Shown here: piece by piece, positions 32,651-38,411 of the stretch
Position numbering within the stretch: the first letter of the stretch is position 1
Layout of the letters: each line of letters starts with the position of its first letter
Assembly: GCF_016698645.1 (NCBI RefSeq)
Contig: NZ_CP068047.1
Location: forward strand, 310,001 to 374,000
DNA length: 64,000 nt
Source of the DNA: Devosia oryziradicis
GTDB taxonomy: Bacteria > Pseudomonadota > Alphaproteobacteria > Rhizobiales > Devosiaceae
Reading direction: 5' to 3'
Program-made: the position numbers and the translations under genes
The notes under the pieces: generated by a model
Seen by the model: the letters and a program-made list of their open reading frames with translations, nothing else
The model's database searches: none
Told to the model about the DNA's origin: nothing

Positions 32651-32724
32651 CGGCGGAGCCGCGCGCTCTTGCGGGAATTCCCCTTCGGCCTATCTAGAGG
32701 GAAGGCGAAAGGCAGGTGGCGAAC

Positions 32725-33627
32725 ATGACCCATTCCATGCGCAAATCGATCGTATCCCTCAGGGCGCAGGTGCCGGACACGGCCTTCACGGCCTCGACGC
32801 TTGGCACCGTGCGCGAAGGCAGCGGCGTGGTGATCGGCGAGGATGGCCTGATCGTAACCATCGGCTACCTGATCACCGAGGCCGAGGAGGTCTGGCTCAC
32901 CACCTATGACGAGCGCGTCCTGCCCGCGCATGTGGTGGGCTACGACCAGCAGACCGGGTTCGGCCTAGTGCAGGCGCTGGGCAAGCTCGACCTGCCGGCG
33001 CTGGAACTGGGCAATTCGAAGGACACCAGGGTCGGCGACCGGGCGACCATCATCGATGGCCAGGGCCTCGACGTGCCGACCGCGATCGTCGCGCGGCAGG
33101 AATTTGCCGGCTATTGGGAATATCTGCTCGACGAAGCCCTCTTCGCCGCGCCGTTCCACCCCTCCTGGGGTGGCGCCGCCGTGGTGGATGCCGACAACCG
33201 GTTGATCGGCATCGGTTCGCTGCGGCTGCAGATGCTGCAAATGGGCAAGACCACCGACATCACCATGCTGGTGCCGATCGACCTGCTCAAGCCCATTCTC
33301 GGCGACCTGATCGCCGCCGGGCGGCCCAAGCGCGAATCCCGGCCCTGGCTGGGCGTGTTCTCGGCCGAGCAGAGCAATGAAGTGGTGGTGATGAGCGTGG
33401 CTGGCGGCGGCCCCGCCGAACAGGCGGGCATCCGTAGCGGCGACGTCATCAGCGAACTCGATGGCGACGAAGTGGAGGGCCTGGCCGACTTCTACCGCAA
33501 ACTATGGCGCCGGGCGCCGGCGGGCAGCGAATTCTCCATGCGCATCCTGCGCGACGGACGCGAAAGCTGGGTCCGCATCAAGACAGCGGATCGGGACGCA
33601 TTCCTGCAGAAGCCGCAATTGCAATGA
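32725..33627 (+). CDS. HtrA/DegP-like PDZ protein lacking the catalytic triad
   Basis: 300 residues from the ATG at 32725 with AGGTGG about 7 nt upstream; a GTG at 32716 is also in frame. Residues about 25-185 align with the trypsin-like domain of S1C proteases (GSGVVIGEDGLIVTIG), and about 195-285 form a PDZ domain (WLGVFSAEQS, GPAEQAGIRSGDVISELDG). The expected triad is gone: His position is Tyr48 (TIGYLI for TNNHVV), Asp position is Gly78, and Ser position is Trp148 (PSWGGA for GNSGGP). No signal peptide is apparent. Probably a binding or sensing pseudoprotease. Confidence 0.8.
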   Translation: MTHSMRKSIVSLRAQVPDTAFTASTLGTVREGSGVVIGEDGLIVTIGYLITEAEEVWLTTYDERVLPAHVVGYDQQTGFGLVQALGKLDLPALELGNSKDTRVGDRATIIDGQGLDVPTAIVARQEFAGYWEYLLDEALFAAPFHPSWGGAAVVDADNRLIGIGSLRLQMLQMGKTTDITMLVPIDLLKPILGDLIAAGRPKRESRPWLGVFSAEQSNEVVVMSVAGGGPAEQAGIRSGDVISELDGDEVEGLADFYRKLWRRAPAGSEFSMRILRDGRESWVRIKTADRDAFLQKPQLQ

Positions 33628-33968: not shown

Positions 33969-34373
33969 TCAACGATCTTCGTCGCCACCAACTTCAAAGC
34001 CAAGTTCGTCGTCCTCGTCTTCGTCTTCCTCGAGGAAGACGTCGGCATCATCGTCGCCAAGCTCCTCGTCGACTTCGACGTCATCGGTCTCGGGGATTTC
34101 CTCGTCGCCGGATTCCTCGGCATCGGCATCCTCGAGCGAGACGATTTCGGGCGCTGCCGCGTCCTCGGCCTCTTCTTCGATCTCCTCATCGTCCTCGTCA
34201 TCCACCTTGCGGGCGGAAGCGGGGGAGGGCTTGCCGGCGAGCACCTGCTCGAAATAGGAGCGGGGATAGCTCTTGCCGGTATAGGGCGAGACGATCGGGT
34301 CCATATTGAGATCGTAGAACTTCTTGCCCGTTTCAGGATCGGTGCGCTTGGTGCCGCGTTCGGAACTGGCCAT
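33969..34373 (-). CDS. TIGR02300 (FYDLN acid) family protein
   Basis: 134 residues. The N-terminal 50 residues carry the family core RGTKRTDPETGKKFYDLN-DPIVSPYTGKSYPRSYFE; the remaining 85 residues are extremely acidic (mostly Asp/Glu, disordered). Found across alphaproteobacteria, usually next to a tRNA-Ala and aroA-cmk-rpsA, as here. Function unknown; the highly charged tail suggests binding to basic proteins or metals. Confidence 0.92.
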   Translation of the reverse strand: MASSERGTKRTDPETGKKFYDLNMDPIVSPYTGKSYPRSYFEQVLAGKPSPASARKVDDEDDEEIEEEAEDAAAPEIVSLEDADAEESGDEEIPETDDVEVDEELGDDDADVFLEEDEDEDDELGFEVGGDEDR

Positions 34374-34534
34374 CGATGTTCCTCGTAAGGTTTTGCGGGG
34401 CTTCTGGCCCCGGTTCGGTCAGTCCGGTTATGGACAAACACCGCCCCTGTCAAACCGAAAATGTGGAGAGCTGGTTCCCGCCGTCCGGGGGTAGTGGCCT
34501 TGCCGCGCCGGGGCATGCTACAGCCGGCTCGCCC

Positions 34535-35887
34535 ATGATCCAAACCGCCCATCCGATTCCAGCCGATAGCGGCCCGCTCGCGAGCCACGGGGCCAACCCG
34601 CTTTCGGGGCGGTTTGCCACGCCGGGCGACCGAGCCATTGCCCATCGGGCGCTGATCGTGTCGGCACTGGCGGTCGGACACAGCACGATCGAGGGCCTGC
34701 CCGACAGCGCCGAGGTGCTGGCGACGGCGGCGGCCCTGCGACAACTGGGGGTGCGCCTGGAGGCGCGGGACGGTGCCTGGCACGTATACGGCCTGGGCGT
34801 CGGCGGGCTGCTCGAGCCGCAGGGACCGCTTGAACTGGGCTTGGCCGGCGAGGGCGGGCCGCTGCTGCTGGGGCTGCTGGCCCCCTACCCATTCTCCACG
34901 CGCTGTTCGGGCGGCCCGGCGCTGACGAGCCAGCCGCTGCTGGACGCCCTGGCGCGCATCGGCACGACAGTGACGCAGGGCGGCGGGCTGACGGTGACAC
35001 TACACGGCCCGATCATGCCGCTGCCCTTGCGGCACGAAATGGCGGCCGCTTCCGCGACGGTCAAATCCGCGCTCTTGCTGGCCGGAGCGCAGATGGCGGG
35101 ACGGACCACCATTGTCGAGCCCGTGGCGACGAGCGATCATACCGAAAAGCTGCTGGCCGACTTTGGTGCCACCATCGCCGTTCACAGCGACGAGGCGGGC
35201 GGCGCCAGCATCGGCGTGACCGGGCTTGCCGAATTGCAGCCGCGCCGGGTGCTGGTGCCAGGCGATCCATCGGCCGCGGCCTATGCGCTGGTGGCGGCAC
35301 TTGTCGTGCCGGGCTCGGACCTGACAATCGAGAAGGTGCTGGTCAATCCGGCGCGAACGGGCCTGATCGACACGCTGCTCGAAATGGGTGGCGATATTCA
35401 GTTTCTCAACCAGCATGAGAGCCAGGGCGAGCATGTCGCCGACCTCAGGGTCCGCTCGTCGCGCCTCAAGGGCATTCATGTGGGTGCCGGCCATGCCGCC
35501 GCCATGCTGGACGATATCCCGGCCCTGGCGGTTGCGGCCGCCTACGCGCAGGGCGAGACGGTGATCGAGGGACTGGCACCGTTGCGTGCCGTGGGCGGAG
35601 ATCGACTGGCCGCGACCGCCGCGGGCCTGGCCACGTCAAAGGTGACGGTGACCGAGGGCGAGGACAGCCTCACCATTGGCGGTATCGGCAAGGTCGAGGG
35701 CGGTGGCATGGTGGCGAGCCGCGGCGATGGCGCCGTCGCCATGAGTTTCCTTGTGCTGGGCCTAGCCAGCCACAAGCGTGTTACGCTGGATGATACCAGC
35801 GGCATTGCCACGAGCTTTCCGGGCTTCGTGGCCGCCATGACCGCGGCGGGTGCGCGGTTCGAACCGGTGAAAGGACGCCTGGGATGA
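34535..35887 (+). CDS. AroA-like protein with degraded EPSP synthase active site
   Basis: 450 residues from the ATG at 34535. It aligns over its whole length with class II EPSP synthases (for example the Agrobacterium CP4 enzyme, compared from memory) and sits in the standard aroA-cmk-rpsA place, overlapping cmk by 4 nt. However the key residues differ: Arg33 for the catalytic Lys of PGDKSISHR, Leu103, Glu106 and Pro109 in the GNAATGCR loop, Gln133 for Arg of TKRP, Thr175 for Gln, Ser200 for Arg, Val353/Gly354 for Lys-Glu of KESDR, Ala400 for Arg of DHRIAMS. Asp326, Lys177 and Arg357 remain. The frame is intact, so this looks like a conserved pseudoenzyme rather than a decayed gene. No symbol is given because activity is doubtful. 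Confidence 0.85.
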   Translation: MIQTAHPIPADSGPLASHGANPLSGRFATPGDRAIAHRALIVSALAVGHSTIEGLPDSAEVLATAAALRQLGVRLEARDGAWHVYGLGVGGLLEPQGPLELGLAGEGGPLLLGLLAPYPFSTRCSGGPALTSQPLLDALARIGTTVTQGGGLTVTLHGPIMPLPLRHEMAAASATVKSALLLAGAQMAGRTTIVEPVATSDHTEKLLADFGATIAVHSDEAGGASIGVTGLAELQPRRVLVPGDPSAAAYALVAALVVPGSDLTIEKVLVNPARTGLIDTLLEMGGDIQFLNQHESQGEHVADLRVRSSRLKGIHVGAGHAAAMLDDIPALAVAAAYAQGETVIEGLAPLRAVGGDRLAATAAGLATSKVTVTEGEDSLTIGGIGKVEGGGMVASRGDGAVAMSFLVLGLASHKRVTLDDTSGIATSFPGFVAAMTAAGARFEPVKGRLG

Positions 35888-36531
35888 TCATTGCCGTCGA
35901 TGGACCCGCCGCGTCGGGCAAGGGCACGCTGGCCTCGGGCCTGGCCAAGCATTATGGCCTGCCGTACCTCGATACCGGCCTGCTCTACCGGGCCGTTGGG
36001 CGGGCAGTGGAACAGTATGAGAATTCGCCCGAATTCGAGCAGCGCGCCATCGCGGCCGCCCAGACGCTGGACGAGAACGACCTCGAGCCAGAATTCCTGC
36101 TTTCGGCCAAGGTGGGGACTCTGGCTTCCAAGGTGGCCGTGATCGGCGCGGTTCGGCATGCCCTTTTCGACTACCAGCGGCAGTTCGCGACCCAGGATGG
36201 CGGCGCGGTGCTCGATGGCCGCGACATCGGCACGGTCATTGCCCCCGAGGCCGATGCCAAGCTGTTCATCCAGGCCGACAGCAAGGCCCGCATGGAGCGC
36301 CGGGCGCGGCAGCTCGAAGCCCGCGGCCAGGAGGTTGACCGCTACGCCCTCTATCACCAGATAGAGGAGCGGGACGCGCGCGACATGGCCAACCCCAATG
36401 GGGGCTTCTACAAAGCCGCCGACGCGCACTTGCTCGATACCACGCTTCTCGATATAGAAGCCGCACTCCGCGCAGCCATCGCGATCGTCGATGGGGCCAT
36501 GGCGTCCAAGGCAGGGTCCAACAGACCTTAA
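35884..36531 (+). CDS. cmk: Cytidylate kinase
   Basis: 215 residues. P-loop AVDGPAASGKGTLAS near 4-17, then LDTGLLYRAVG near 31, the CMP-binding DGRDIGTVIAPEADAKLFI near 114, and the lid with RRARQLEARGQ. Phosphorylates CMP and dCMP. Overlaps the AroA-like gene (ATGA) and lies 161 bp before rpsA. Confidence 0.96.
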   Translation: MIIAVDGPAASGKGTLASGLAKHYGLPYLDTGLLYRAVGRAVEQYENSPEFEQRAIAAAQTLDENDLEPEFLLSAKVGTLASKVAVIGAVRHALFDYQRQFATQDGGAVLDGRDIGTVIAPEADAKLFIQADSKARMERRARQLEARGQEVDRYALYHQIEERDARDMANPNGGFYKAADAHLLDTTLLDIEAALRAAIAIVDGAMASKAGSNRP

Positions 36532-36692: not shown

Positions 36693-38411
36693 TTGGCACA
36701 GCAAACTGTGACTAAGGAAGATTTTGAATCGCTGCTGATGGACTCGTTCATCGACAACGAGCCGCTAGAGGGCGCCGTCGTCAAGGGCACCGTCGTTGCG
36801 ATCGAAAAGGACCTGGCGATCATCGACGTCGGTCTCAAGACCGAAGGCCGCATCGCGCTCAAGGAATTCGGCCAGGCCGGCCGTGACGGCACCATCAAGG
36901 TCGGCTCGATCGTCGAGGTCTATGTCGACCGCGTCGAAAACGCCGCCGGTGAAGCCGTGCTGTCGCGCGAGAAGGCTCGCCGCGAGGAGAGCTGGGTCAA
37001 GCTCGAAGAGATGTACAACAACAACGAGCGCGTTGAAGGCACCATCTTCAACCAGGTCAAGGGTGGTTTCACCGTCGACCTCGAAGGCGCCATCGCCTTC
37101 CTGCCGCGCTCGCAGGTGGACATCCGTCCGATCCGCGACATCGCGCCGCTCATGAACGTGCCGCAGCCGTTCCAGATCCTCAAGATGGACAAGCGTCGCG
37201 GCAATATCGTCGTGTCGCGCCGCGCCATTCTCGAAGAATCGCGCGCCGAACAGCGTTCGGAAATCGTGCAGCAGCTCGAAGAGGGCCAGGTTGTCGACGG
37301 CGTGGTCAAGAACATCACCGATTACGGTGCGTTCGTCGACCTGGGCGGCATTGATGGCCTGCTCCATGTCACCGACATCGCATGGCGTCGCGTGAACCAT
37401 CCGTCCGAAGTGCTGACGATCGGCGAGACCATCAAGGTCCAGATCGTTCGCATCAACCATGAATCGCACCGCATCTCGCTCGGCATGAAGCAGCTGCAGG
37501 CCGATCCGTGGGATGGCATCGAAGCCAAGTACCCGATCAACGCCAAGTTCACCGGCCGCGTCACCAACATCACCGACTACGGTGCGTTCGTGGAACTGGA
37601 GCCGGGCATCGAAGGCCTGATCCACGTCTCGGAAATGAGCTGGACCAAGAAGAACGTCCACCCCGGCAAGATCGTCTCGACCTCCCAGGAAGTCGAAGTC
37701 GTCGTGCTGGAAGTCGATCCGGACAAGCGCCGCATTTCGCTCGGTCTCAAGCAGACCCTGGCCAATCCGTGGGAAAGCTTCGCCGAGAAGTTCCCCGTCG
37801 GTTCGGTCATCGAAGGCGAAGTCAAGAACAAGACCGAATTCGGCCTGTTTATCGGCCTCGACGGCGATGTGGACGGCATGGTCCATCTCTCCGACCTCGA
37901 CTGGCAGAAGTCGGGCGAAGTGGCCCTGGAAGACTACAACCGCGGCGACATGGTTTCGGCCAAGGTCCTCGACGTTGACGTCGAAAAGGAACGCATCAGC
38001 CTGGGCATCAAGCAGCTCGCCACCGGCGAGACTTCGTCGGCTGCCGGCGCTGATGCTGCTGGCGAAGCTGGCGGCCTGCGCAAGAATGCCGTCGTCACCG
38101 GCACCGTGATCGAAGTCAACGATGGGGGCATCGAAGTCCGCATCGAGGGCACCGACATGACCGCCTTCATCCGTCGTGCGGACCTCAGCCGCGATCGCAA
38201 CGACCAGCGTCCGGAGCGTTTCTCCAAGGGCGAAAAGGTCGACGCGCGCGTTACCCAGTACGACCGCAAGACCTCGCGCATCCAGCTGTCGATCAAGGCA
38301 CTTGAGATCGCCGAGGAAAAGGAAGCCGTCGCCAATTACGGTTCGTCGGATTCGGGCGCTTCGCTCGGCGACATCCTGGGCGCCGCGCTCAAGGGCCGCG
38401 AAGAGAAGTAA
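36693..38411 (+). CDS. rpsA: 30S ribosomal protein S1
   Basis: 572 residues. Start chosen as TTG at 36693 because GGAGAAG lies 4 nt upstream and the product then begins AQQTVTKEDFESLL, as in other S1 proteins; a GTG at 36675 is in frame but lacks a ribosome site. Six S1 repeats of about 75 residues follow (for example VKNITDYGAFVDLGGIDGLLHVTD and VTNITDYGAFVELEPGIEGLIHVSE). Binds mRNA leaders on the 30S subunit. A strong terminator follows. The 161-bp leader has G/C-rich inverted repeats (36600-36665) that might serve autoregulation. Confidence 0.97.
   Translation: MAQQTVTKEDFESLLMDSFIDNEPLEGAVVKGTVVAIEKDLAIIDVGLKTEGRIALKEFGQAGRDGTIKVGSIVEVYVDRVENAAGEAVLSREKARREESWVKLEEMYNNNERVEGTIFNQVKGGFTVDLEGAIAFLPRSQVDIRPIRDIAPLMNVPQPFQILKMDKRRGNIVVSRRAILEESRAEQRSEIVQQLEEGQVVDGVVKNITDYGAFVDLGGIDGLLHVTDIAWRRVNHPSEVLTIGETIKVQIVRINHESHRISLGMKQLQADPWDGIEAKYPINAKFTGRVTNITDYGAFVELEPGIEGLIHVSEMSWTKKNVHPGKIVSTSQEVEVVVLEVDPDKRRISLGLKQTLANPWESFAEKFPVGSVIEGEVKNKTEFGLFIGLDGDVDGMVHLSDLDWQKSGEVALEDYNRGDMVSAKVLDVDVEKERISLGIKQLATGETSSAAGADAAGEAGGLRKNAVVTGTVIEVNDGGIEVRIEGTDMTAFIRRADLSRDRNDQRPERFSKGEKVDARVTQYDRKTSRIQLSIKALEIAEEKEAVANYGSSDSGASLGDILGAALKGREEK

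Follow-up and report, generated by a model that had tools for sequence, protein, structure and literature searches.

An AroA homologue lacking most of its active site, probably displaced and conserved as a pseudoenzyme, in Devosia oryziradicis

The closest described relatives of the Devosia oryziradicis gene considered here are the class II EPSP synthases of the CP4 type (PDB 2gg4, 2gg6 and 2ggd; PF00275, TIGR01356). The gene is an aroA-type open reading frame at positions 34535–35887, on the plus strand, of a 64,000-nucleotide stretch of contig NZ_CP068047.1 (positions 310,001–374,000), referred to below as the window. It has the fold, the length and the locus of these enzymes, of which it is a direct descendant, and it differs from them in that most substrate-binding and catalytic residues are gone; in sister copies of the QEC type (Q-E-C at positions 353–355), it is the acceptor side that has changed. 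A MurA-type paralogue was rejected, since the window protein reaches 35.3 bits against TIGR01072, for which the cut-off is 392.7, and the genome encodes a separate MurA. NikO, of nikkomycin synthesis, is a transferase of the EPSP synthase family with another acceptor, and the QEC form would resemble NikO-type transferases in this respect. In plant indole synthesis, a pseudoenzyme is reported to be kept by selection; this case likewise belongs to aromatic metabolism and concerns another enzyme in other organisms (PMC12727527). A search of the literature, covering open-licence papers, found no described AroA pseudoenzyme and no Devosia aroA case. We consider, at a probability of roughly 0.72, that the window gene encodes a conserved pseudoenzyme, derived from a displaced AroA with a remodelled acceptor side and probably serving a non-catalytic role.

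The active site of the window copy

The reading frame runs uninterrupted from an ATG at 34535 to a stop codon at 35885–35887 and encodes 450 amino acids (aa). An alternative in-frame ATG upstream, at 34376, would give 503 aa, and the protein analyses took 34538 as the first codon, leaving off the Met. The product has the EPSP_synthase domain (PF00275, 217 bits) and falls below the TIGR01356 equivalog cut-off (262 versus 287.25 bits). The predicted structures of degenerate copies are confident and CP4-like, and that of the window protein superposes on CP4 EPSP synthase over 433 residues, with about 45% identity in the structural alignment.

Residues were called against CP4 EPSP synthase (chain 2ggd), for which 21 active-site positions were scored, and nine of these are kept in the window copy, so that the protein lacks the full set of conserved PEP, S3P (shikimate 3-phosphate) and catalytic residues of an AroA. 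Replacements relative to CP4 are K28R, S29A, N98L, T101E, R104P, R128Q, Q175T, R200S, K353V, E354G, S355G, H404G and R405A, whereas R33, A99, G100, G102, S173, K177, H202, D326 and R357 are retained. As placed by the alignments on the plus strand, PGDKS has become PGDRA, with R33-A34 in the protein's own numbering (34631–34636) standing for K28 and S29 of CP4. The PEP (phosphoenolpyruvate) loop GNAxTGxRL is lost, reading GLAGEGGPL (L103, E106 and P109; 34841–34861), and Q133 replaces the PEP-binding Arg equivalent to R128 (34931–34933, by residue count and sequence). T175 replaces Gln175 (35057–35059), S200 replaces Arg200 on the acceptor side (35132–35134, from alignment and sequence), V353-G354-G355 stands where canonical copies have K-E-S and QEC copies Q-E-C (35591–35599), and G399-A400 replace H404-R405 of the DHR motif (35729–35734). 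The catalytic-base position, D326, is retained (35510–35512).

The first-pass annotation, made from the sequence alone, had listed most of these losses together with the retention of Asp326, Lys177 and Arg357, and both parts of its list agree with the CP4 alignment. Conservation of the missing residues at shifted positions, the alternative it had raised, was rejected as unlikely because the two sequences align colinearly, conserved stretches flanking the lost residues, and because of the structural superposition on CP4. Its claim that the pattern differs from random decay also stands: other invariant sites are kept at 96 of 138 positions in the window copy and active-site positions at 8 of 20 (Fisher p = 0.012, sites treated as independent), and the PEP side has been lost eight or nine times among related copies, as described below.

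From E. coli and CP4 crystal structures, we take S29, A174, R200 and K353 to face shikimate 3-phosphate (S3P), K28, R128, E354, R357 and R405 to face PEP, and D326 and E354 to be proton shuttle residues. Published accounts of EPSP synthase agree with this assignment in outline. Lys22, Arg124 and Lys411 of the E. coli enzyme are stated to take part in PEP binding (PMC3411725), the re-docked co-crystal ligand of 2AAY is surrounded by Arg27, Ser23, Lys22, Asp313 and Lys340 (PMC10305266), and the terminal domain contacts the carboxyl of glyphosate and the hydroxyls of S3P, the central domain the phosphate of glyphosate and the carboxylate and phosphate of S3P (PMC8983318). Judged by its residues, the window protein is most likely dead as an EPSP synthase, a conclusion that we regard as well supported.

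A second AroA and the states of the old copy

The D. oryziradicis genome (one contig, 3.5 Mb, 98.5% complete) contains three members of the family, namely MurA (L001), a second AroA (L002) and the window gene. L002 scores 336.5 bits against TIGR01356, above the cut-off, and has the CP4-equivalent residues K28, S29, R33, N98, G100, T101, R104, R128, S173, Q175, R200, D326, K353, E354, R357, H404 and R405, with S at 174 and T at 355. Seven further AroA motifs are complete in 19 of 20 second-AroA loci, the remaining one (L052) being without KT[FY]P. The L002 gene (1468–2784, minus strand), as read by eye, sits between iron-sulfur-assembly-like genes and a GGDEF-type gene. The first-pass annotation had foreseen either a second aroA with intact motifs or a new role for the protein; the two are not exclusive and each is partly true, in that the second aroA exists and purifying selection still acts on the old copy.

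The two types have a reciprocal distribution across the family. Old-type genes (matching the window protein) and new-type genes (matching L002), both at E 1e-30, were sought in 121 sampled family genomes; the old type was found in 60 genomes and 9 of 16 genera, and the new type in 88 genomes and 8 of 16 genera, with six of the 88 at only 35–40% identity and the close form confined to five genera (g1, g7, g8, g9 and g12). Seven genera (g3, g5, g6, g10, g11, g15 and g16) account for 26 sampled genomes with the old type and none of the 88; 16 of the 26 appear among the new-type negatives listed, and the other 10 were assigned to 13 further negatives, assuming the same draw. The 20 of these old-type sequences that were read keep 20–21 of the 21 active-site positions (21 in 19 copies, 20 in one). 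Devosia contributes 60 genomes to the 88 and none to the 20 negatives listed, and in another search all 61 genomes gave at least a weak match that was taken as the new type (L002 in the window genome). Of 75 Devosia genomes, 32 retain the old type at E 1e-20; 28 of these 32 have the new type at E 1e-30, the others (G037, G038, G039 and G050) by weak match only. In genus g12, six genomes have an old-type copy and five of them the new type also, G123 being without it. The g12 old copies (L040, L068, L069, L070, L071 and L072) are also degenerated and lack the Q-C pair; their degeneration apparently proceeded without a QEC step.

This distribution is consistent with a new AroA that arrived horizontally and displaced the old one. 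The new type is rare in the class as a whole, occurring in its own genome and 9 of 289 others at E 1e-60, seven of the nine at 62–76% identity, and the second AroA, patchy as it is in Alphaproteobacteria, was probably gained horizontally. A donor was sought in wider searches, including the 289 genomes of the class, and was not identified.

The 32 Devosia old copies are in several states. Thirteen are of the QEC type, in which the PEP side is kept and K353Q and S355C are common to all, 15 are degenerate, including the window copy, and those of G047 and G008 are in a part-way state. The copy of G043 is nearly canonical (K28R, K353R and R357L) in a genome that also has a second AroA, and from these residues it may represent a displacement that began separately or is at an early stage. 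The copy of G039 is QEC-like at the positions checked and has two internal stops, which likely reflect assembly error because the adjoining FYDLN gene is also split over two frames. Residue counts left out L022 (this G039 copy), L084 (a duplicate of L041) and L068 (from G123, at a contig end and read apart). In a protein search with a QEC query, the best 120 of 8000 matches included 27 canonical proteins (excluding P0051, which is degenerate although K353 is present), 41 QEC proteins, 5 in between and 46 degenerate proteins, proportions that do not reflect natural frequencies; a protein was counted as QEC if it kept 13 or 14 of 14 PEP-side residues and lacked K353.

The 41 QEC proteins have their acceptor side changed by K353Q, S355C, A174D/E and mostly S29A: Q353, C355 and an acidic residue at 174 occur in all of them, A29 in 38 and R200 in 11, and D326 and E354 are retained in 40 and 41, respectively. 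When proteins are instead sorted only by the Q-C pair, at least 9 of 10 PEP-side residues are kept in 42 of the 48 that have it, against 1 of the 44 that have neither the pair nor K353. A changed acceptor side therefore goes hand in hand with an intact PEP side, as expected of a working site. An acidic residue at 174, the expected seat of the S3P phosphate, would argue against S3P as the QEC substrate.

A tree built without the active-site columns, for counting PEP-side losses, has nine such losses as a whole (eight with weak branches collapsed), of which eight lie inside the QEC clade (seven collapsed; six if lost means fewer than 6 of 10 residues). All 62 Q-C tips fall under one node (support 0.958, 119 tips), which also holds the window copy, and because of this shared node the descent of the window copy from a QEC-type ancestor is well supported. 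The active-site loss reported at first pass is thus real and can be refined into steps, in which the acceptor side changed first, in a common ancestor, and the PEP side was lost later and repeatedly.

What the QEC ancestor did is a more tentative matter. At somewhat less than even odds, the QEC copies of Devosia are a new enolpyruvyl transferase, joining PEP to an acceptor other than S3P and born of AroA after the displacement, with the window copy among several later pseudoenzymes that kept a second, non-catalytic function in the terminal domain. A PEP-binding sensor or regulator, whose window derivative no longer senses PEP, is unlikely, though a candidate of some weight: it would account for the conserved PEP-side residues and the changed acceptor side, yet D326 and E354, the proton-shuttle residues that nearly all QEC copies keep, would be needless for a mere sensor.

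Selection after loss of the active site

Codon models, fitted with our own script (GY94 with F3x4), gave the ratios of nonsynonymous to synonymous substitution rates (dN/dS). Four canonical clades have values of 0.038–0.044, and three QEC clades have 0.067, 0.081 and 0.057. The part-way pair has 0.175, whereas the values for four degenerate clades are 0.116, 0.196, 0.146 and 0.114. A dN/dS of 1 was rejected in all 14 sets, with twice the log-likelihood difference (2dlnL) at 93–788, and a neutral pseudogene was rejected on these values. On the window branch of a six-genome tree, whose background consists of part-way and QEC copies, dN/dS is 0.10 (2dlnL against 1: 106), and about 8.6 stop codons are expected under neutrality where none is seen. 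The old copies of G000 and G033 differ at 68, 59 and 185 first, second and third codon positions, a third-position share of 0.59 as against 0.33 in neutral simulation. For this pair dN/dS is 0.116 in the old copy, 0.028 in the new AroA and 0.064 in cmk; in clade B, cmk has 0.148 beside 0.196 for the old copy. New-AroA control fits for G047–G008 and G030–G126 spanned 6 codons and were left out. The purifying selection that the first-pass annotation proposed to look for across relatives is therefore present in the degenerate clades and on the window branch. A pseudogene would have a broken frame and evolve neutrally; here the frame is open, and with its catalytic residues gone and its predicted fold and purifying selection retained, the product can be classed as a putative pseudoenzyme.

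It is improbable that the gene is a functionless relic in slow decay after displacement, its low dN/dS being left from the working period. Redundancy predicts both the absence of the whole gene, for which 43 of 75 Devosia genomes have no match at E 1e-20, and the repeated active-site losses, and dN/dS is indeed above that of canonical copies. Yet site decay precedes the analysed branches in clade B, where G100A and R104A occur in 4/4 members, and in clade C, where 3/3 share a deletion at the K353-E354 loop; because these losses are common to all members, selection went on after the active site was lost, at the dN/dS of 0.196 and 0.146 given above. The window branch, for its part, combines low dN/dS with zero stop codons. 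Among the 32 Devosia copies, only that of G039 has stops well inside the match, in an assembly that also breaks the FYDLN frame, and no remnant was found at 10 of 10 gene-less loci inspected, taking the two best tblastn matches at each (E at least 0.005, the best on the far side of cmk).

Constraint has also shifted within the protein. Near the active site, dN/dS is below that of the rest of the protein in each clade of intact type that was fitted (one canonical, two QEC) and above it in degenerate clades A and B. Entropy was computed over 57 rows of degenerate copies, 46 of them listed proteins and 11 taken from genomes, with some proteins entered from both sources. In these rows the loops of the former active site vary most (residues 93–104, 117–128, 165–176 and 345–356; 1.8–2.2 bits) and residues 273–308 (35351–35458) least, at 0.32–0.57 bits per site. 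This segment, a helix and strand hairpin of the terminal domain by secondary structure, is about equally conserved in QEC copies and less so in canonical copies, which come from more genera. The retained function most likely needs the fold, and the terminal domain more than the cleft, with segment 273–308 perhaps a candidate site for it.

There is a low probability that the window protein remains catalytic, acting on another pair of substrates in a new pocket. The retained D326, R357, K177, H202, S173 and R33 would suit such an enzyme, as would the continuing purifying selection, but the replacements at lost positions differ among related lineages, and the variable loops just described are those of the old pocket.

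Several observations weigh against a conserved pseudoenzyme with a new role, or limit the evidence for it. The gene is dispensable, as the 43 genomes without it attest, and the degenerate copies, with dN/dS about 3–5 times canonical values, are under weaker constraint. Replacement residues vary between lineages, and no conserved new pocket was found in them. The two-ratio model gives 0.123 for the window pair and 0.130 for the background, so that the window pair is not higher. The cmk control values spread widely (0.036–0.171), and the pair G027–G024 alone gives 0.041 with a total dS of 5.85, single pairs being potentially unstable. Clades E and F were saturated at synonymous sites, and bounds or saturation also affected the fits near the active site in clades C and D and those for the central domain in clades A and C; none of these was used. 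Retention of glycines was dropped as a sign of fold constraint, neutral simulation giving equal retention. G123 has a degenerate old copy (3/21 positions) and no new AroA at E 1e-30, in a fragmented assembly with 7% contamination. Finally, the division of residues between shikimate and PEP sides is an assignment carried over from the E. coli and CP4 crystal structures.

With these points weighed, the pseudoenzyme reading proposes the following history. The original class II EPSP synthase of the lineage would have been displaced by the second, probably horizontally acquired AroA. The freed copy would then have been remodelled on its acceptor side in an ancestor of Devosia through K353Q, S355C and A174D/E, in most cases with S29A and in many with loss of R200, and would have kept its residues for PEP binding and proton transfer. 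The resulting QEC form may bind PEP and probably hands enolpyruvate to an acceptor other than S3P. Several lineages within the QEC clade, six to eight by count and the window's included, would later have lost the PEP side, with the fold remaining under purifying selection, and the window product may now work non-catalytically, such as by binding a partner, perhaps via the conserved terminal-domain segment.

The cmk locus, neighbouring genes and wider meaning

The gene lies between a divergent neighbour of the TIGR02300 (FYDLN_acid) family (33969–34373, minus strand; 101.6 bits) and, on its own strand, cmk, encoding (d)CMP kinase (35884–36531; TIGR00017, 140.8 bits, above the cut-off), followed by rpsA for ribosomal protein S1 (36699–38411; NF004955, 1041.8 bits). 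Its stop codon overlaps the cmk start in an ATGA (35884–35887). The new role postulated at first pass had been tied to cmk and rpsA, and this part is not supported. The position beside cmk is inherited from ordinary AroA, and at the gene-less loci inspected cmk lies 0.13–0.35 kb from the FYDLN gene in all ten cases; the gene thus seems dispensable for both cmk and rpsA. Least probable of all, and very unlikely, is that the frame is kept open solely for translational coupling to cmk, its amino acids hardly mattering: the ATGA of the window and several relatives and a stop no more than 18 bases from the start of cmk in 15/15 degenerate Devosia copies suit coupling, which accounts for an open frame and not for a dN/dS near 0.1. 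Moreover, five QEC copies have gaps of about 85–110 bases to cmk, and cmk itself occurs in 73 of 75 Devosia genomes whether the old aroA is there or not. One QEC clade (L016, L017, L036 and L037) has a gap of about 110 bases, where most copies overlap or nearly touch. The cmk tree, from which L025 and L041 were left out for their short cmk matches, is weakly supported and gives no count of gene losses.

About 1 kb from the aroA relic, the window encodes an HtrA/DegP-like protein with a PDZ-like end (32716–33627, plus strand; TIGR02037, 101 bits, cut-off 416). Aligned to a DegP-like chain, it has Tyr, Gly and Gly at what we take to be the catalytic His, Asp and Ser positions, and by this alignment it is likely a second pseudoenzyme.

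Among rows with names, most old copies are called '3-phosphoshikimate 1-carboxyvinyltransferase' and a few 'hypothetical protein' or 'aroA'. Because of such public names, pathway models and classes of glyphosate sensitivity derived from the gene at the aroA locus could mislead where Devosia is concerned. In the QEC proteins there is a concrete lead to an unknown PEP-dependent reaction. One bacterial family offers a natural replicated series, running from the intact enzyme through acceptor-side remodelling and a dead but selected fold to deletion, in which it can be studied how an essential enzyme comes by a new job after displacement and what remains once catalysis goes. In this series, the retention of a displaced copy without its active site as an intact folded protein suggests that it has gained another job.
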